From an uncultured Poribacteria bacterium (lineage in GTDB: Bacteria > Poribacteria > WGA-4E > WGA-3G), in NCBI GenBank assembly GCA_951828385.1, contig OX639973.1, positions 3,587,200 to 3,651,199 on the forward strand: 64,000 bases of DNA. The letters run 5' to 3'. This document shows positions 4,265 to 60,644 of this stretch, piece after piece; position 1 is the stretch's first letter; each line of letters opens with the position of its first letter. The notes below the pieces were generated by a model. The model saw only the letters and a program-made list of their open reading frames with translations, made no database searches and had not been told where the DNA came from. The position numbers and the translations under genes are program-made.

Positions 4265-7200
4265 CTACTGTGACAAAGACTCGTAGTAGTCATCAACGAG
4301 CCGTCGGTACTCAGGCGGGACCTCCTCTTTCGCGACTTGGAAGAGTCGTTTCTTCTCCTGAAGGGTGTTGAGTCGATCTTCAAGTGCGGCTTCCAATTTC
4401 GTCAAGTCCCGAATAACGAATTCATAGTTAGGGAACGGATTTGAGCGATTCCCAGGGCGATAGTCCATAGTATTAAGCAGATCGAGCCAGAGTTCGTCAA
4501 TTTCACGCCCGGATTCGCGACCACCGGCGCGTGCCTCTTGGTTCTCACCCTCACCTTCAGCCTGTCCCGGCTGCTGCCCTTCCTGTCCGGGTTGTTGTCC
4601 GGGCTGTTGACCGGGTTGTTGGCCTTCCTGCCCATCTTGCATGGCTTGTTGCGCCTGTTGCATCCGCTCCTGAATCTGTTGCTGTTGTTCAGCGAGTTGT
4701 TGCTGACGGCGTTGTTGTTCCTCTGTCTGCTCTTGCCCCTCCATAGCTTGAAGTTCGCGTTGGATGTCGTCCATCTGTTCTCGCGATTGTTGAAGCTGCT
4801 GAAGTGCAGCTTCGAGCTGCTCTTCTTCGGTGTTTGCCATGTTGGCTTGCGCCTGTTGCAGATCCCCCTGTACCTGCCTGAGGGTCTCCACGACTTCTTG
4901 TTGGTTCAGTTCAGCGGCGCGGAAACTACGCCATTGCAGGGCGCGTTGTGCGGTTGACATATCCCCGGCAGTCTGCTCTTCAGTGAGCCGTCTGGTAGCG
5001 TCAGTTACATTTCGGGCTGCCTCTGGATTCTCCTCACGGAGCTGCTCAGGCAAATTCTCCAATGTACTCTCAAGTGCTTTGAGGTCCTGTTGAAGTTCTC
5101 GCTGTTCGTTAGCAAGTTCAGATGCCTTTCGGAAATCTTCGGGGCGCATCTCTGACTGCTGAGAGCGGCTCCTGAGTTCTTGTGTCTCCTGTTGGACACC
5201 CGATTGTTCATCTATCAACTGCTGGACCTGTTCTGCAGCATTGGCGAGCGCAGCATCGGTGAACTCCGATGCGACTTTTTCCAACTGTTCAATGGCTTCC
5301 TCAAGCCTTTCCTCTGCTTTTTGGCCTTTGGCGGCACTGAGTTGCGGTTCTTGTTGTTCCATGCCTTGTGAAGCTTGATCCATCTGTTCGCCAGCCTGTT
5401 GCATCGCTTGACCGGCTTGATCCAAGCGTTGGCCTTGGGAGCCTTGAGCATTCTGCTGCATGGTACTGAGCTGCTGTGCCATCTGCTGTGCCTGCTGTGA
5501 CAGCTGCTCCTGTTGCTGACTGTTCTGTTGCATTTCGCTCGGAGATGGTTGGTTTTCACGCCCTAACTGCTGGCTCTGTTGACTGAGCTGCTGTTGCTCT
5601 GCCAACATTTGACGTGCCTGATCTAACATCTCCTGCGTCTCCTCCTGCATCTCCATATCAAGCTCGTTCTGCTGTTCCTCAAGTTCACTTTGCAGCTCCT
5701 CCATTTCGAGTTCAAGATTCTCAGCAAGTTGGGGGTTACTGTTCCGCATCTGCATCAGTATGGTCGGAAGTTCAAGACTCACTTTTATCAAGAGTTCAAG
5801 TGCCTCTTGTTCCGCGGGTATCGCTGCAACAGGTTGGATAGCGTTCAGGCTATCGGTCGCTTCACGCATTTTTTGTATTGCATCCTCCAAGTTCATCAGA
5901 ATCTCGGGTGTGATTGGCGATTCGCCTTGCATTGCCATGCTAAACTCATCTGCAAGCTGCTGTGTCTTATCCTTCAATTTATCTTGCTTGTCCCCCGTTT
6001 TCTTAACAGCACTCCGATATTCCTCCGTAACTGATGACGGTTTAGCACTAATGTGTTTCGCTGTCTCCCGAATAATCTGCTTCTGGGAGGCGAGTATCTC
6101 TAAAAGCGGATTCGGCATCGGTTGCGATTGTTCTGCCTCCGCCTCGTGGAAATCTTCATTAAACGGGCGAATTTCAAGAAAATAAATATCGCTACTCGCT
6201 TCGCCGGGACCAGTGAGCGTGTTATTATCAACAGCGTGTGCGTAGTAGGAAATAATATCCCCCGGTTCAACATCAAATTCCTCAAGGTAGAATGTATAAC
6301 TACCCTCTGCCACGCGGCGTTGAACCGTATCAACAGCATCAGGCGTGGCGGTTTCCAAGGTTAACTCCTGCAGTTCGTCAGACCCGATGCGATACATAAG
6401 TTTTAGTGCTGCGATGCCATAATCGTCTGTGGCTTCAGCAATGATTTCCACCTCACCCAACTTCGTCGTTTTGATATCGCGTCCAGGTTCCTTTATCACA
6501 ACCTCCGGTACAGCGTCTGGAATGGCTTTTATAGTGTATTCGATGGGTATCTCGTTATTGAAACCATCAATGCCCAGAAGCTCAACGGTATACGTCCCGT
6601 CCGCAATAACATCTACAGTTGTTGTAAGGATGTTCCCATCGGAGATAACCATCTGGGTTGAAGCAGACTCCTGAGTTTCGTCCTTTTCAGGCTTAACATT
6701 CATCTTCAGAGAAAATGTTGCAGTTTGAATGGCTTTATTGGTCGTGAGTTTTATTTCCGCCTGTGTGCCAACGACCGCTTGAATGTCGCCTGTCCCAGTT
6801 TGCACGACAGGTTTAAGACCTGTGTAGTCTGGATAAGTGTAAGCCACGGAAATTTCCGTCACCTTCGGCATCTCAAAGACTTCAACAGTATAGCGTTCCG
6901 AAGTCGTCTCGTTCGCTACGACGTAGTATTCGATATCCGCGTCAATGTTAAAAATTTCATAAGCAAACCCACGTTTATCGTCTGGGTTTTGTAACATATT
7001 AATCTGTTGCTGGGTTGTTTCCGTTTCGGAGGGGGTGGCTTCTCGGTTCTCTACATTCTCATAAGTCAAAACAACCTTCTCAGCAGATTTTCCGGTGACA
7101 GTGACGTGAATAGGTAGACTCTTGCCACGAAGGATACGTACATTTCCCGGTTCGACAGTTAGCTTCGTTGTCAAAACCGGTTCAGTCTTCTCCCAAGGGA

Positions 7201-7753
7201 TCAACACACGGAAAAGACTGGTTTGGAGTTCTGTTGGAAATAGGAGTGCAAGTACACAGCAGCCCACAACAACCAAAGCCGCGATGCCGACATGCTTACG
7301 GGTACGACTGTGATCGACCGTTGCTTTAAAATCAATACTTTTCACCCGCTGCGTCGTATCTTCAATCAGGCGTTGGAGCATGTGCGCTTCAATGGGATCT
7401 GTTGCCTCGCGATTGCCGAATTCAATAGCACTCACCAATCTATCTTCAAGGTCAGGGTGGTTTTGCTCAACGTTGAGTGCGATATCCCGGAGCGTGAGTG
7501 CTGCTCGGAGGGGTTGAACGAGATACTTATAAAGCAGGTAACCCGTCACACCGACACCGCCTGTTAACAAAGCAATTCGCACAAAACTTGGCAGGGGCAT
7601 TAACCAATCAATGATAGCCTCACCGACAAAGACAGCAATTATGCCCGTCAGGACGATAGCGAATCCTGCCCAAAAAATACTACGTTTCCAAACGCGCCTG
7701 GCATCTAAAATTTTTGTTTGTAACTCTGCGTAACCTTCTCTTGTATTCATCAT
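4265..7753 (-). CDS. DUF4175-type giant membrane protein with Gln/Glu-rich coiled coil
   Basis: 1162 residues. The N-terminus has two closely spaced membrane helices (about 24-46 and 57-80) and a third at about 153-172. These are followed by beta-rich periplasmic regions with Ig-like strands (for example ISVAYTYPDYTGLKP, GTYTVELLGIDGFNNE). From about residue 560 to 1080 it is a very long coiled coil rich in Gln, Glu and Met. A conserved-looking tail (MDYRPGNRSNPFPNYEFVIRDLTKLEAAL..., EEVPPEYRRLVDDYYESL) closes it. This layout matches DUF4175 proteins, often encoded near MoxR/BatA-type VWA genes; here a BatA-like gene lies 8 kb away rather than adjacent. GGAGG precedes the double ATG. The function is unknown, presumably in the envelope. 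Confidence 0.85.
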   Translation of the reverse strand: MMNTREGYAELQTKILDARRVWKRSIFWAGFAIVLTGIIAVFVGEAIIDWLMPLPSFVRIALLTGGVGVTGYLLYKYLVQPLRAALTLRDIALNVEQNHPDLEDRLVSAIEFGNREATDPIEAHMLQRLIEDTTQRVKSIDFKATVDHSRTRKHVGIAALVVVGCCVLALLFPTELQTSLFRVLIPWEKTEPVLTTKLTVEPGNVRILRGKSLPIHVTVTGKSAEKVVLTYENVENREATPSETETTQQQINMLQNPDDKRGFAYEIFNIDADIEYYVVANETTSERYTVEVFEMPKVTEISVAYTYPDYTGLKPVVQTGTGDIQAVVGTQAEIKLTTNKAIQTATFSLKMNVKPEKDETQESASTQMVISDGNILTTTVDVIADGTYTVELLGIDGFNNEIPIEYTIKAIPDAVPEVVIKEPGRDIKTTKLGEVEIIAEATDDYGIAALKLMYRIGSDELQELTLETATPDAVDTVQRRVAEGSYTFYLEEFDVEPGDIISYYAHAVDNNTLTGPGEASSDIYFLEIRPFNEDFHEAEAEQSQPMPNPLLEILASQKQIIRETAKHISAKPSSVTEEYRSAVKKTGDKQDKLKDKTQQLADEFSMAMQGESPITPEILMNLEDAIQKMREATDSLNAIQPVAAIPAEQEALELLIKVSLELPTILMQMRNSNPQLAENLELEMEELQSELEEQQNELDMEMQEETQEMLDQARQMLAEQQQLSQQSQQLGRENQPSPSEMQQNSQQQEQLSQQAQQMAQQLSTMQQNAQGSQGQRLDQAGQAMQQAGEQMDQASQGMEQQEPQLSAAKGQKAEERLEEAIEQLEKVASEFTDAALANAAEQVQQLIDEQSGVQQETQELRSRSQQSEMRPEDFRKASELANEQRELQQDLKALESTLENLPEQLREENPEAARNVTDATRRLTEEQTAGDMSTAQRALQWRSFRAAELNQQEVVETLRQVQGDLQQAQANMANTEEEQLEAALQQLQQSREQMDDIQRELQAMEGQEQTEEQQRRQQQLAEQQQQIQERMQQAQQAMQDGQEGQQPGQQPGQQPGQEGQQPGQAEGEGENQEARAGGRESGREIDELWLDLLNTMDYRPGNRSNPFPNYEFVIRDLTKLEAALEDRLNTLQEKKRLFQVAKEEVPPEYRRLVDDYYESLSQ

Positions 7754-8619: not shown

Positions 8620-9750
8620 TTACGGTCCACTTTTCTCAGCCTCAAGTTGTGTCTTCTGCCAACCGTAATCGACAGATCCGTCATAGAATTTGTCCGGATG
8701 CTCAACTGCCCAAATTTGCTTATGGATAATCCAGTTTTTCGGATCTAATGCCAACGCCTTCCGCCATTCCGCCATCGCTTCCTTCTTTTTACCGCCTTCC
8801 AATAAAACGAGCCCGAGTTGAAAACGCGCAGCTGCTTCAGCATTCGTCTTTGCAGGTGGCTTGTTTGATGGTTTCATATTGTGAAGCAGCTCCGTATTGT
8901 AGTCGGGATCCGACAACCATTTTTCGAGCATTGCGAGGTGCTTTTGATTTTTGACATTAACGTTGAAAGGTGCTTTCACCAGTCGTCCAGCCTCGTCAAT
9001 CATGACACCGTAAGGAATCGCTTTGAGGTTATAACGGGTGCCAAAACTATTCTGTGAATCAACAAGTGTGACAAAATCGGCATTCGCAGCATCATGCCAA
9101 GGACGTACGACGGATGCGCCTTGGGCATCAAGGGCGATTGAGATAAAGTTTAACGCTTCGTTATGTTTGGCGTAAAATTCCTGCCAACCTGGCAGCTGTC
9201 CACGACACCCTCACCACGAACCCCAAACATAGAGAAACGTCTTCTTCCCACGAAACTCTTTTAAATGTCTTGGGTTACCCTCTAAATCAGGGAGTGTGAA
9301 TTCTGGAGCGAGATATGCCGGTTGGATAATCTCCAGCATGTTCGTCGATGCTTCGTAAATTTCAAAGCCGAAGGTTTTCGCGAGGGGTGCCGGTTGCACA
9401 TAAGTTACACCATCAATGTCCACAGCATCGTCCTTGCCATCTTGGAATTGGAGTGGTACACAGAGTTCTGATGCCACACCGCCGCAAAGTACCACCATCC
9501 CGGCACCTTCCGGGTATTCTACCTTCAATTCGAGTTGTTTGGCGAACGGCTCCAAAGGCACCCACCATGCCCCGTCTTTGAAAATAGCGGGCTTGGTAAA
9601 TTCAATACGCTGTGCGTCTACTGAAACCTGAAAATCCCTTTTTTTCATATTATCCTCTTCAGTAAATCCGATTTGCATGCCTATTACAGAAAATAATATC
9701 GCCAACATCAAGCATCTTACGGTAGAGTGAAGTTTACGCGTAACAATCAT
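8620..9750 (-). CDS. Probable selenoprotein: exported thioredoxin-like protein with in-frame TGA at the redox site
   Basis: Read through one in-frame TGA (9211-9213), this frame encodes 376 residues. It has a signal peptide (about 1-30) and a copper-amine-oxidase-N-like region (about 38-140). A TlpA/redoxin domain starts at APEFTLPDLEGNPRHLKEF and continues TFLYVWGSW-[TGA]-GCRGQLPGWQ. Downstream in the same frame come the thioredoxin strand FISIALDAQG and the cis-proline loop KAIPYGVMIDEAGRL, then a TPR-like tail. The TGA falls where TlpA proteins have the first redox Cys, so the active site would be U-G-C. A hairpin with a GGU loop follows (9181-9195). The start ATG overlaps the cytochrome stop. 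The alternative is a pseudogene split by a nonsense mutation, but the protein remains conserved-looking after the TGA. A gene caller would report two fragments, 9211-9750 and 8620-9003. Confidence 0.82.
9181..9195 (-). promoter_or_regulatory. SECIS-like hairpin downstream of the in-frame TGA
   Basis: On the coding (minus) strand CTGCCA-GGT-TGGCAG forms a 6-bp stem with a 3-base GGU loop. The loop begins 22 bases after the TGA. Bacterial SECIS elements are short hairpins directly 3' of the UGA, with a G and U in the apical loop at about this distance; in E. coli fdhF the GGU lies about 19-21 bases after UGA. The lower stem is not obvious by eye. Confidence 0.65.
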
Positions 9751-10121
9751 TTTGTTTTTCGCTCCCTATGCTGTGCATCGTAAATTAGGAATCTAATTAT
9801 TTCTTCAGCGGTTTTCGGCGTAAGTCCTGAACCCGGCTTCCGCATCATTTTATAGACATACTTTCGCCACTCTTCCGGCATGAAGGTAGAGTTAATGGGA
9901 CGCGCAACAGTGTGGCATCGACTACACTTATTGGTAAAGAGTTCGTAAGCTTCCTGCATCTTCGCAGGGTAGGCAGTAACATCAATAAAGTTAGGTCCCT
10001 TATCCGCTGGATAGGTTTTTGGGACTGCGCGCGGGGCGCGCAAGGCATAGATCATTCCAATGCCTACAAGGATGATCACACCTAAGACAGTCCCCCAGAC
10101 AATTATCCTTTGCATATTCAC
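9747..10121 (-). CDS. Membrane-anchored monohaem cytochrome c-like protein
   Basis: 124 residues with an N-terminal membrane helix (about 6-27, IIVWGTVLGVIILVGIGMIYAL) and one haem c attachment motif, CSRCH, at about residue 66. The axial Met is probably one of those in FMPEEW or KMMRKPGSGLT. The C-terminal helix EEIIRFLIYDAQHR fits small c-type cytochromes that sense or carry electrons. The TGA stop overlaps the ATG of the putative selenoprotein by four bases (ATGA), implying translational coupling and a shared redox role outside the cytoplasmic membrane. The redox partner is unknown. Confidence 0.85.
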   Translation of the reverse strand: MNMQRIIVWGTVLGVIILVGIGMIYALRAPRAVPKTYPADKGPNFIDVTAYPAKMQEAYELFTNKCSRCHTVARPINSTFMPEEWRKYVYKMMRKPGSGLTPKTAEEIIRFLIYDAQHRERKTK

Positions 10122-22905: not shown

Positions 22906-24250
22906 CAGGGTCATTCAATTGTACGATTCCTCATTTTATGAGGTTAACTGCGAGTTTAGGTTCTGAAGCCAAAAGTTGGAGTGCGTCGGTGATTTTTGTA
23001 TGTCCTGTGAATCGTAAAACAGAGAGTGCTGTGTTTCGCATGGCTGCCATGACTTGCGGGATAACGCCGGTTCGGACGCATGATGCATCTTCTTGAAAGA
23101 CGGTATCTCGGATCCAGTGAAGTTTATTCTCAATCGTCCAATGCTCTCGTCGGAGTTTCAGCAAGTCTGCTGCCGAGGCACGTTCGGGTGTCAGACTTGT
23201 GATACCATACTGCACGTGGCATTTGACGCGCCCGGTTCTTTTACACTTTTGTTGTGTGGTATATTGATAAACTTGCTGGAGCCCTGGCCAGTGGGTGTGT
23301 TCGGTCAAGAGAGTGCTTGCGGTGAGGGTGCGTGTGGTCATCCTACCTTTTGCGTCTTCTGTGTCTGTATACGTTTGAAGATGTGCGTCGTTTTCTGCGT
23401 GAAGGTTTTCAAAGCGGCGTTGATTGACTTCAGGGGTGTCTGTTTCATCAAGGGGTTCAAAGAGAGTTTGAATATCTTCAAACAACTGCTTCTGATTCGC
23501 TTTGACGGGGAGGCAGTAATCTGCTTGACGGTCAAGGATTTCTTGACAGAACTTGCGTTGGGTCAAAAGTGCGTCCGTAGTGATGACGAGACTTGCGACA
23601 TCAAACGCCTTCAGGAGTTCGATGGAAACAGGGATTTCATTGGTCTTTTCACCGACCGCACATGCTGCGATAGGGATGCCTAACTCATGAAGAACGGCTG
23701 TGAGGAGATGTGTCCTACGGGCATCTTCGGTATGGCTGTTGCCTAAGGTCTTGCCATCTATCGCAAGTCCCTTCAAGTCATCCGTGGAAATGTCTAAACG
23801 TGCTAAAGTCTGTGTTGTCCACTTGGTGAGGACTTTCTCTACCGCGGTGATGTCAAGTCGCCGAAAGAGATAATGAAAAGTTGATGCTGCGGGGGTTTGC
23901 TTCGCCGTGAATCCCAAGGTTTCCTGTCGCAGGTTTCGGTGGAGGCGGGCCCATTTGGCAATCGCTGTATAGCTGCGTTGTCCACACAGGAGTCCGACGA
24001 CGGTGAGTGCGAGCATTGCGGCTAAGGGATGGCGTTGTCCTTTTTTATTGCGCGGATCTGACACTTCTGCTAACATAGTAAGTAAGTGGCAAGAGTGATT
24101 TCTTGTCATGATTCACCTCAAAAAATATGGTCATTTTTTACGGTGAAGTATAGCAGAAGTCGCGTGAGAAGTCACGCGACTTCTGCTTTTGCGAAAATAT
24201 TAACACCTGTGAAAAATATGAAACTAAAAACCTACAATTGAATGACCCTG
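22906..24250. mobile_element. Intact ISAs1-type insertion sequence
   Basis: 1345 bp bounded by perfect 18-bp inverted repeats (CAGGGTCATTCAATTGTA at 22906-22923 and its complement at 24233-24250). It is flanked by a 10-bp target duplication AGGCTGAGAT (22896-22905 and 24251-24260). This agrees with the 8-10 bp duplications and CAGGG ends of the ISAs1 family. The single transposase gene is complete. It landed in the gap upstream of the ECF sigma gene and the SDR gene. Confidence 0.95.
22931..24109 (-). CDS. ISAs1-family DDE transposase
   Basis: 392 residues, full length for the family. N-terminal helical region SDPRNKKGQRHPLAAMLALTVVGLLCG is the typical opening. DDE signatures: first Asp in LAIDGKTLGNS (about 145), second Asp in LVITTDALLTQ (about 201), and the Glu in REHWTIENKLHWIRDTVFQEDAS (about 317). 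The middle motif YCLPVKANQKQL is also family-typical. The ATG at 24109 lies about 140 bases inside the right inverted repeat. No frameshift or stop interrupts it, so it is probably active or recently active. Confidence 0.95.
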   Translation of the reverse strand: MTRNHSCHLLTMLAEVSDPRNKKGQRHPLAAMLALTVVGLLCGQRSYTAIAKWARLHRNLRQETLGFTAKQTPAASTFHYLFRRLDITAVEKVLTKWTTQTLARLDISTDDLKGLAIDGKTLGNSHTEDARRTHLLTAVLHELGIPIAACAVGEKTNEIPVSIELLKAFDVASLVITTDALLTQRKFCQEILDRQADYCLPVKANQKQLFEDIQTLFEPLDETDTPEVNQRRFENLHAENDAHLQTYTDTEDAKGRMTTRTLTASTLLTEHTHWPGLQQVYQYTTQQKCKRTGRVKCHVQYGITSLTPERASAADLLKLRREHWTIENKLHWIRDTVFQEDASCVRTGVIPQVMAAMRNTALSVLRFTGHTKITDALQLLASEPKLAVNLIK

Positions 24251-35840: not shown

Positions 35841-36260
35841 ATGCCTCTCAAAATCGCTAATAAGAAACGTAATTACAAAACAAGCAACAAAACAATCTAT
35901 AGTTGTCAATATCACGTGATTTGGTGTACCAAGTATCGTCGTAAGGTTTTAGACACACAGATACAAGGGCGTCTAAAACAACTCATACGAGAAAAACAAA
36001 ACGAATATGACTATCAAATCAGAGAAGTTGAAACTCAACCTGAACATGTCCATTTACTGATAGAAATACCGCCGACACATTCTGTTGATAAAATCGTTGG
36101 CAAAATCAAAGCCTATACCGCTAAAGTTTTGCGAGAAGAATACCCGTCCCTGAAAAGTCGTTTGCCGTCTTTGTGGACACGTTCAAAATTTGTAAGCTCC
36201 TGTGGTGGCGTAACTCTTGAAATCATAAAAGATTATATTGAAGGTCAAAGCGGACAATGA
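35841..36260 (+). CDS. tnpA: TnpA, IS200/IS605-family Y1 transposase (copy 1)
   Basis: 139 residues, the usual size. HUH motif in PEHVHLLIEIPPTHS (about 68-74) and the catalytic Tyr in IKDYIEGQ (about 133). It nicks and joins single-stranded DNA at the ends of the element. It overlaps tnpB by four bases (ATGA). It differs from copy 2 at its two ends but is nearly identical in the middle (see findings). Confidence 0.95.
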   Translation: MPLKIANKKRNYKTSNKTIYSCQYHVIWCTKYRRKVLDTQIQGRLKQLIREKQNEYDYQIREVETQPEHVHLLIEIPPTHSVDKIVGKIKAYTAKVLREEYPSLKSRLPSLWTRSKFVSSCGGVTLEIIKDYIEGQSGQ

Positions 36261-37492
36261 GAAAAGCACAGAAGTTCAAACTTCAGAATCAATCTAACAT
36301 CATCAAGATTGGCAATATGCTTGACGATATGTGGCAGATACACCTGCATATCATGCTTTTACAGCGTAGGTATTATCGCATGTTCGGTAAAAACCTGTCC
36401 GCATCTCGGATCAACACACATATTGCGAAACTCAAGAAGCGCACAAAACCACATTGGGCAGACTTGCCGAGTCAAGTTGTGCAAGACGTTGTTCTGCGAT
36501 ATGGCAAATCACAAGACGCATTTTTCCAAAACATAGAAGACCGCAAAGCAGGTTTGACGACCCGTAAAGTGGGTAGACCGAAAATCAAACCGCGTCACAA
36601 ATACACCTCTATGACGTTCACACAAGCGGGCTACACACTTGAAAACAATCGTATCAAAATCAACTGTATAGATACATGGTTCTCCTTCCACAAACACCGT
36701 GAAATCAACGGGACAATCAAGACGATCACACTCAAACGGGACAGGTGCGGTGATTATTGGCTATGCTTTTCGTGCGAGAATGTTGACGATTCCGAACCGA
36801 AACCCAAGACGGGTAAGAGCGCAGGGTTTGATTACGGAAACAAAACATTCGCTGTCCTGAGCGTCGCCTTTAGCCCAGATGGAAAGGCACTCGCGAGCGG
36901 CGGTGGTTGGGAGGACTGTACCCTCGTTCTGTGGGATGTGGATACTGGACGCTTGAAAAAAGCATTCTCAGAGAATGTCCGTCAAGTTTATAGCGTATGC
37001 TTCAGCCCAGATGGAAAAACAGTCACAAGTGGTAAAGGTTATGGGCACGGTCTGCTCTATCTGTGGAACACAGACACAGGAGAAAATAAAAAGATCGTTA
37101 CTGGACATGAAAATTCTATCCGGAGCGTCGCTTTCAGCCCAGATGGACAAACACTCGCAAGTGGAACAGGGAACGCAGACGGCACAATCCATCTGTGGGA
37201 TACAAGCACTGGAAAACTGACACAAACAATGAAATCGCATCCAGATAATGTCAGTATCCTATGCTTTAGTCCTGATGGACAAATACTTGCAAGTGGGAGT
37301 AGCGATCACACGATTCGGCTATGGAATATAACCACAAGCGGGGAGAAAAAGACGTTTACAGGGCATACGTCCTCTATTAGGAGCGTCCATTTCAGTCCTG
37401 ATGGACAAACGCTCGCCAGCGGAAGTTGGGACGGTACAGTGCTATTGTGGGACCTCACTACAATCAAAGTAGAAAGGAGCGCGACACAATGA
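36257..37492 (+). CDS. TnpB-WD40 in-frame fusion
   Basis: 411 residues. Residues 1-198 are TnpB, nearly identical to copy 2 up to GFDYGNKTF, which contains the first RuvC Asp. After the junction (36850/36851) the chain continues AVLSVAFSPDGKALASGG and contains about five WD40 repeats (signature SVAFSPDGxxLASGSxDGTIxLWD). The later RuvC Glu and Asp and the zinc finger are absent, so guide-directed cleavage is not expected. The WD40 part is the C-terminal end of a gene whose start was lost. Its stop overlaps the next ATG (ATGA). It could still be translated as a chimera. Confidence 0.85.
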   Translation: MRKAQKFKLQNQSNIIKIGNMLDDMWQIHLHIMLLQRRYYRMFGKNLSASRINTHIAKLKKRTKPHWADLPSQVVQDVVLRYGKSQDAFFQNIEDRKAGLTTRKVGRPKIKPRHKYTSMTFTQAGYTLENNRIKINCIDTWFSFHKHREINGTIKTITLKRDRCGDYWLCFSCENVDDSEPKPKTGKSAGFDYGNKTFAVLSVAFSPDGKALASGGGWEDCTLVLWDVDTGRLKKAFSENVRQVYSVCFSPDGKTVTSGKGYGHGLLYLWNTDTGENKKIVTGHENSIRSVAFSPDGQTLASGTGNADGTIHLWDTSTGKLTQTMKSHPDNVSILCFSPDGQILASGSSDHTIRLWNITTSGEKKTFTGHTSSIRSVHFSPDGQTLASGSWDGTVLLWDLTTIKVERSATQ

Positions 37493-59115: not shown

Positions 59116-59535
59116 ATGCCACTCAAAATCGCTAACAAAAAGCGTGATTACCGAACAACGCAGAAAACAATCTATAGTTGTCAATATCACGTGATTTGGT
59201 GTACCAAGTATCGTCGTAAGGTTTTAGACACACAGATACAAGGGCGTCTAAAACAACTCATACGAGAAAAACAAAACGAATATGACTATCAAATCAGAGA
59301 AGTTGAAACTCAACCTGAACATGTCCATTTACTGATAGAAATACCGCCCACACATTCTGTTGATAAAATCGTTGGCAAAATCAAAGCCTATACCGCTAAA
59401 GTTTTGCGAGAAGAATACCCGTCCCTGAAAAGTCGTTTACCCTCTCTGTGGACACGTTCAAAATTTGTAAGTTCTTGTGGCGGTGTAACGCTCCAAGTCA
59501 TGAAGGACTATATTGAAGGTCAAAGCGGACAATGA
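59116..59535 (+). CDS. tnpA: TnpA, IS200/IS605-family Y1 transposase (copy 2)
   Basis: 139 residues. HUH in EHVHLLIEIPP and catalytic Tyr in MKDYIEGQ. It overlaps tnpB by four bases (ATGA). Amino-acid differences from copy 1 occur only near the two ends (NKKRDYRTTQK versus NKKRNYKTSNK; TLQVMKDY versus TLEIIKDY). Confidence 0.95.
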   Translation: MPLKIANKKRDYRTTQKTIYSCQYHVIWCTKYRRKVLDTQIQGRLKQLIREKQNEYDYQIREVETQPEHVHLLIEIPPTHSVDKIVGKIKAYTAKVLREEYPSLKSRLPSLWTRSKFVSSCGGVTLQVMKDYIEGQSGQ

Positions 59536-60644
59536 GAAAAGCCTACAAGTTCAAACTTCAGAACCAGTCTAACATAGTGAAGATTGGTAATATGATTGAC
59601 GATATGTGGCAGATACACCTCCATATTATGCTGCTTGACCGTAGATATTACCGTATATTTGGTAAGAACCTATCAATATCTTGCCTAAATGCACACGTTG
59701 CTAAACTCAAGAAGACGACAAAACCGCATTGGAAAGATTTGCCGAGTCAAGTTGTGCAAGACGTTGTTCTGCGATATGGCAAATCGCAAGACGCATTTTT
59801 TCAGAACATAGAAGACCGCAAAGCAGGTTTGACGACCCGTAAAGTGGGTAGACCGAAAATCAAACCGCGTCACAAATACACCTCTATGACGTTCACACAA
59901 GCGGGCTACACACTTGAAAAAAATCGTATCAAAATCAACTGTATAGATACGTGGTTCTCCTTCCACAAACACCGTGAAATCAACGGGACAATCAAGACGA
60001 TCACACTCAAACGTGACAGGTGCGGTGACTATTGGATATGCTTTTCGTGCGAGAATGTTGATGATTCGGAACCGAAACCCAAGACGGGTAAGAGCGCAGG
60101 GTTTGATTACGGAAACAAAACATTCCTCACAAGCGACGCAGGCAACAAGATAGAATCTCCGCAGTTTTTCAAACAATCCCTGAAAACGTTGCGATCCCTG
60201 AGCAAAGCGCTGAGTCGTAAAGTCAAAGGTTCTAATAATTGGTGGCGTTGTGTTCGTGCTTTGGCAAGGCACCACAGAAAAGTCGCCCGCCAAAGAGAAG
60301 ATTGGCAGTGGAAACTTGCTGACGAACTTTGCACGGAGTTTGATACGCTCTGTTTTGAAACCCTGAACCTTGACGGTATGAAACGGCTTTGGGGACGCAA
60401 AGTCTCTGACCACGCCTTCTATCAGTTCATACAGATATTGGAACAGAAGTGTGCAAAGCACGGTAAAAAACTGAAAAAAATCAGTCAATGGACAGCAACG
60501 ACAAAGCCTTGCAGTGATTGTGGATACCCTAATCAAGACCTCTCTCTTTCAGATAGACAGTGGACATGTCCCGAATGTGGTTCACACCACGACAGAGACA
60601 TCAACGCTGCTATCAATATCAAACGGGCGGGCTTGGCCGCCTAA
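59532..60644 (+). CDS. tnpB: TnpB, RNA-guided RuvC nuclease (complete)
   Basis: 370 residues, standard TnpB length. RuvC Asp in GFDYGNKTF (about 191), Glu in LCFETLNLDGM (about 276) and the final Asp in HHDRDINAA (about 355). Zinc finger CSDCG and CPECG (about 328-352). TnpB proteins use a right-end-derived RNA (omega RNA) to cut DNA next to a transposon-adjacent motif. All catalytic residues are present, so it may be active. It is the reference for the truncated fusion at 36257. Confidence 0.95.
   Translation: MRKAYKFKLQNQSNIVKIGNMIDDMWQIHLHIMLLDRRYYRIFGKNLSISCLNAHVAKLKKTTKPHWKDLPSQVVQDVVLRYGKSQDAFFQNIEDRKAGLTTRKVGRPKIKPRHKYTSMTFTQAGYTLEKNRIKINCIDTWFSFHKHREINGTIKTITLKRDRCGDYWICFSCENVDDSEPKPKTGKSAGFDYGNKTFLTSDAGNKIESPQFFKQSLKTLRSLSKALSRKVKGSNNWWRCVRALARHHRKVARQREDWQWKLADELCTEFDTLCFETLNLDGMKRLWGRKVSDHAFYQFIQILEQKCAKHGKKLKKISQWTATTKPCSDCGYPNQDLSLSDRQWTCPECGSHHDRDINAAINIKRAGLAA

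Follow-up and report, generated by a model that had tools for sequence, protein, structure and literature searches.

The minus strand of the window studied here (64,000 nucleotides, the whole stretch of DNA analysed) contains a thioredoxin-like gene with an in-frame TGA, which raises the question of whether this codon ends the protein or is read as selenocysteine (Sec). Read from 9750 to 8620 with TGA translated as Sec, the locus is one frame of 376 residues that contains just one TGA and closes with an ordinary stop. Our analysis, in which the codon, the gene, the Sec machinery, the hairpin constraint, the fold and the gene pairing were all established computationally, indicates that 8620-9750 is almost certainly a selenoprotein gene. 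Its product is very likely a Sec-containing ResA-like protein, and a role as a ResA-like disulfide reductase or isomerase is probable. The features on which the argument draws are the following.

8620..9750, minus strand: predicted selenoprotein gene, 376 amino acids plus stop with TGA = Sec (translation)
9208..9210, minus strand: in-frame TGA, codon 180, read as selenocysteine, in W-Sec-Gly-Cys182-Arg (translation and orthologue conservation)
9178..9192, minus strand: bSECIS hairpin CUGCCA-GGU-UGGCAG, loop 22-24 nt past the TGA
9007..9024, minus strand: cis-Pro loop KAIPYG with Pro246 (thioredoxin fold; P246 invariant)
9460..9486, minus strand: N-terminal Cys pair C89 and C97, invariant (family alignment)
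9747..10121, minus strand: membrane-anchored monohaem c-type cytochrome (CSRCH), directly upstream, its stop overlapping the selenoprotein ATG (ATGA)

The TGA stands at codon 180 in the context VWGSW-U-GCRGQLPGWQ, and when aligned to ResA-type proteins of known structure it falls where WCxxC has its first cysteine, with one linker residue absent. The preliminary description of this DNA had spoken of one frame broken by the TGA alone at the first redox-cysteine position of the TlpA type, of an active site Sec-Gly-Cys rather than CxxC, and of thioredoxin elements past the TGA that include the cis-Pro loop. Our translation agrees on all of these: the site reads W-U-GC with one linker residue, and the cis-Pro loop KAIPYGVMIDEAG was found in the downstream frame. 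Third-position changes dominate both before and after the TGA, indicating that the coding signal goes on, and the post-TGA frame is under purifying selection, with many invariant residues. Table 11 yields two ORFs instead, 9211-9750 and 8620-9003, so that a gene caller would break the gene, as had also been foreseen.

It could be argued that the TGA does end one protein and that a second one starts downstream, where the ORF has an ATG at 9003, or that the TGA stands for some other amino acid owing to a code change or a suppressor. Stop reassignment is indeed known in some bacteria. However, a start at ATG 9003 would lose most of the thioredoxin fold. Recoding, for its part, is at odds with the other genes of the window, which are long ORFs under table 11, and with the presence in the genome of tRNA-Sec and SelA/B/D; moreover, the orthologues almost all carry one TGA and no more, and it falls at the catalytic Cys site every time. 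We consider these explanations, taken together, very unlikely.

A sequencing error, or a decaying pseudogene with a real stop, would be the simplest account of an in-frame stop in one genome alone. However, the TGA was found at the same codon in 44 named loci (one fragment excepted) and in further fetched loci, the named relatives being Candidatus Poribacteria MAGs. In 58 of the 85 genomes of the phylum, coming from many projects, an NCBIfam-model match at E<=1e-20 was obtained and the best match had one TGA. In the named and fetched loci the motif around the codon is always W[GA]SW-U-[GA]-CR, and all orthologues have UGC or UAC at the site. A second phylum was reached via a relative in an Armatimonadia MAG. 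There, members were found in 10 of 291 genomes, all with a single TGA in the context WU-GCR; selB is present in 8 and tRNA-Sec in 9 of these 10. Lesions that would suit error or decay are seen in two relatives, G002 with an additional in-frame TAA and G050 with a frameshift. Because the identical TGA stands in dozens of independent assemblies, assembly error, which the preliminary description had named as a possible objection, is excluded; and because the codon is conserved and the frame behind it is under selection, the error or pseudogene reading is refuted and keeps next to no probability.

The same description had expected cysteine or Sec at the TGA position in homologues, and this was borne out: the orthologues examined all have the TGA, while ordinary paralogues carry the first Cys of CxxC there. 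No Cys form of the UGC branch was seen in 376 genomes of the two phyla. Two candidates for a Cys orthologue were rejected. The only stop-free candidate of the phylum at E<=1e-20 (G077:C181) is an ordinary CGPC paralogue, and G071:C730 is likewise an ordinary paralogue, with WATWCKPC. Separately, we noted two TlpA-like Sec candidates with UxxC. One of them (L131, G072:C19:8200-10300; WASW-U-AGC, not UxC) is the second TlpA-like candidate of a genome that also has the UGC gene, and the other (L133, G115:C245:5600-7000; WATW-U-PSC) lies in a genome of another phylum.

The Sec reading had been made dependent on the presence of selA, selB, selC and selD, and all four were found in the source genome, a Candidatus Poribacteria genome of 6.66 Mb in one contig, above curated cut-offs: selA with 603 bits (cut-off 268), selB with 355 bits (242), selD with 363 bits (125) and the tRNA-Sec gene selC, which adjoins selB, with 76 bits (47). 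Across the phylum, selA was detected in 72 of 85 genomes. Eight MAGs have the UGC gene but yielded no selA: selB and/or tRNA-Sec was found in five, and the remaining three are only 73-83% complete, a pattern that fits assembly gaps. A sponge metagenome paper describes SelA and SelB together in most symbiont bins and their absence from most reference relatives (PMC5649159). Our search of the literature on Poribacteria selenoproteins found no paper describing any.

Two observations on the machinery itself may be added. SelD is also a selenoprotein candidate, with an in-frame TGA (VKCAG-U-ASKL; G000:C1:1330118-1331041, L012/L140) followed by a hairpin GCTCC-GGG-GGAGC, an architecture much like that of the gene at 8620-9750. 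One genome with a UGC member, G217, has two tRNA-Sec-like genes above the family cut-off (C57:10393-10483 and C13:22416-22499).

Downstream of the TGA lies the hairpin CTGCCA-GGT-TGGCAG, with 6 bp and a 3-nt GGU loop; its first stem base is at +16 and its loop occupies +22 to +24, exactly the positions first described. Bacterial SECIS elements are given in a 2026 review as having a loop of 3-9 nt, a stem of 4-16 bp, a G in the first two loop positions, a distance of 16-37 nt from the UGA and a minimum free energy (MFE) <= -7.5 kcal/mol (PMC13188914). The hairpin falls within these published limits with its 3-nt loop, 6 bp and 21 nt from UGA to loop. The MFE comes to -15.6 kcal/mol over 51 nt, to -8.5 when the hairpin is folded with short flanks and to -7.1 for the bare 15-mer. 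Hairpins of a strict kind (6 Watson-Crick pairs, a 3-nt loop starting with GG or GU, spacing of 16-37 nt) occur by chance at ~0.1% of window positions, and those of a loose kind (6 pairs with G-U allowed, G in the first two loop positions) at ~13%. Given these chance rates and a single-sequence folding z-score of just -1.7, the single hairpin by itself is only moderately informative. Rfam at the gathering threshold gave no match in the window, and no family model fits the hairpin, a result that we count neither for nor against the element. Synonymous resampling of the source sequence gave a loose 6-bp hairpin in 25% of resamples; this single-sequence approach is weak, since the LPGW codons, which are conserved, themselves contribute to the hairpin, and a cross-species synonymous test was therefore used instead.

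Among 43 distinct sequences, only two of the 70 codons for conserved residues were without any synonymous variation, those of L186 and Q190, which form the two arms of the stem. L186 is CTG in 43/43, although CTG makes up 15% of the Leu codons there, and Q190 is CAG in 43/43, while the third base of Gly188, in the loop, varies freely. Had these two codons been named beforehand, their ranking first and second of 70 would have p ~1 in 2415 with phylogeny ignored. When 64 distinct sequences from both phyla were considered, the Leu/Gln codon pair was CTG/CAG in 61 and TTG/CAA in 3, and mixed in none. In a 25-sequence alignment the covariation score exceeded that of all 500 shuffles; only the outermost stem pair covaries there, three of the six pairs are invariant, and 12 of the 25 sequences do not pair at the innermost position (columns 24 and 28). 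Judged by the synonymous-site constraint and the compensated pair, the hairpin is under RNA-level selection, and the SECIS element suggested by the preliminary description holds on both this ground and the published limits. Taken with the Sec genes and the TGA conservation, the hairpin constraint supports its proposal of an exported thioredoxin-like selenoprotein.

We modelled the protein from the family alignment (mean pLDDT 79.6). The model has an N-terminal hydrophobic helix (signal or anchor), a beta-rich domain at ~41-142, a thioredoxin domain at ~145-262 and C-terminal helices, of which ~301-350 are TPR-like. The top PDB fold matches are ResA structures, with a target TM-score of up to 0.86, and sequence matches to ResA reach E 6e-14. 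As in ResA/TlpA proteins, a thioredoxin fold with a cis-Pro and a redox pair at the helix start was found; the CxxC spacing was not, the site having one linker residue and the alignments a gap where the other would be. The beta domain gave a weak match to Cu_amine_oxidN1 alone (18.5 bits; cut-off 24.2). Invariant residues include Sec180, Cys182, Pro246, Cys89 and Cys97. The C89/C97 pair is present in all long members examined, with 4-11 residues between the two cysteines (source gene, L110-L114, L151), and absent from the short members of the second phylum, which are without the N-terminal domain. This pair might be an internal redox partner.

Directly upstream lies the gene of the cytochrome, a small protein whose Pfam match is weak. 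Of 43 named Poribacteria loci, 41 have this gene adjacent and with exactly the same 4-base ATGA overlap; the cytochrome and selenoprotein genes likely share a transcription unit. A transketolase gene further upstream is found in nearly as many loci as the cytochrome. Downstream, a Yip1-domain membrane protein and a large protein (4265-7753) are kept in closer relatives and not beyond. Beside the genes of L102, L107 and L105, the most distant members, no homologue of the cytochrome was found; G072 does have a cytochrome with the CSRCH motif, at ~1.5 kb upstream of the TGA. Because the cytochrome is not adjacent in these four, it cannot be the sole client family-wide. Gene order suggests it tentatively as a direct partner of the selenoprotein.

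Elsewhere in the window, two very similar two-gene pairs on the plus strand (35841-37492 and 59116-60644) look IS200/IS605-like, each consisting of a short ORF resembling TnpA and, after it, one resembling TnpB, and a minus-strand ORF at 22931-24109 resembles an ISAs1-type transposase, also by appearance.

From these data we infer the Sec chemistry, the client and the direction of electron flow. SelB and Sec-tRNA would read the UGA of codon 180 as Sec, with the hairpin 16-30 nt downstream as guide. The resulting protein would be an exported, probably membrane-anchored thioredoxin of the ResA/TlpA type in which CxxC has lost one linker residue to become Sec-Gly-Cys. Within the envelope, Sec180 would act as the attacking nucleophile on a disulfide or some other electrophile, and Cys182 would resolve the intermediate via a one-residue-spaced selenenylsulfide, presumably strained because the Sec-Gly-Cys spacing is short. 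The protein would most likely be a thiol/selenol reductase or isomerase of the cell envelope, its likeliest client or electron partner being the c-type cytochrome whose gene lies upstream and overlaps its own. The CSRC disulfide of this cytochrome, for example, could be reduced before haem attachment, as ResA does, and the TPR tail may serve as a docking surface. For a Cys-Gly-Cys peptide the potential is -167 mV (Woycechowsky and Raines 2003, as cited in PMC4316792), close to that of PDI, which makes an isomerase or mild reductase plausible; selenium in place of sulfur would shift this value.

The protein could also be a selenoprotein with another function, such as a Prx/GPx-type peroxidase, a Sco-like metal or disulfide handler, or an isomerase with the N-terminal Cys pair as internal partner, an alternative that contests the functional part alone and not the Sec reading. 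Redoxin and AhpC-TSA are indeed the highest-scoring Pfam families (AhpC-TSA 51 bits; cut-off 26), the PDI-like peptide potential also speaks for another function, as do C89 and C97, which all long members keep and the short ones without the N-terminal domain lack, and the cytochrome is not beside the gene in the most distant members. However, the nearest structures and sequences are ResA/StoA/TlpA reductases and not peroxidases, the resolving Cys is in the TlpA position, and the exact-overlap pairing with the cytochrome held across the surveyed Poribacteria loci. We therefore take another function seriously without favouring it, and return to the ResA-like reductase or isomerase as the preferred reading. 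A bolder form of it, which we regard as speculative and rather unlikely, is a Sec-only branch with an obligate Sec-x-Cys, the dedicated partner of one cytochrome, in which selenium would offset the strained loop and the N-terminal Cys pair, the selenenylsulfide and the haem protein would exchange electrons. If true, selenoprotein and cytochrome would together make up a redox module of a new kind.

The UGC selenoprotein type is not new, since it was predicted in 2008 and an NCBIfam model, NF041054, exists. An ocean survey of that year counted 46 Sec and 855 Cys homologues of "Prx-like (UGC-containing)" selenoproteins (PMC2398784), and reviews of 2022 and 2026 list the family (PMC9312934, PMC13188914), the latter as "UGC-containing TlpA disulfide reductase family protein"; in the parts of both reviews that we drew on, Poribacteria are not named. 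The source protein has the pfam00578/cd02966 fold and the Sec-Gly-Cys with predicted Sec of this type. Unlike the type as surveyed in 2008, the Poribacteria branch came without any Cys form that we found. NF041054 (WAxxUGC_long, "ResA-like WAxxUGC motif-containing protein") is by far the best NCBIfam match (E 7.8e-48, 163.6 bits), but the score is below the curated cut-off of 300, which is reached by none of the 85 genomes of the phylum. The branch has WGSWU[G/A]C (WGSWUGC in the source protein) instead of WAxxUGC, whereas the distant Poribacteria members L110-L114 and L118 carry the exact WASWUGC. Sequence comparison thus gives good support to the source protein as a diverged branch of the predicted UGC type, apparently Sec-only.

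What is new here is the gene context, that is, the cytochrome overlap and the architecture shared by the long members, with its N-terminal Cys pair and C-terminal TPR. In the portions of the literature covered, we did not meet these two features, the phylum-wide conservation or the missing Cys forms. Standard annotation splits or loses the gene in apparently most of a sponge-associated phylum, and the selenium use of the phylum is therefore under-counted. The fixed pairing offers a c-type cytochrome as a concrete candidate partner, and since no Cys counterpart was seen in the 376 genomes, the indispensability of Sec can be tested by a Sec-to-Cys swap.

With ResA, StoA, TlpA and CcmG, the selenoprotein shares the thioredoxin fold, the N-terminal anchor, the redox pair at the start of helix 1 and the cis-Pro loop. 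It differs from them in having Sec-x-Cys with one linker residue instead of CxxC with two, and in its extra N-terminal Cys-pair domain and C-terminal TPR. The one-residue spacing is also that of the CXC (Cys-Gly-Cys) disulfide isomerase mimics. These, however, are synthetic peptides with sulfur only, whereas the protein described here is a natural one with predicted selenium, and would represent nature's selenium counterpart of the CXC redox site with its one-residue spacing.
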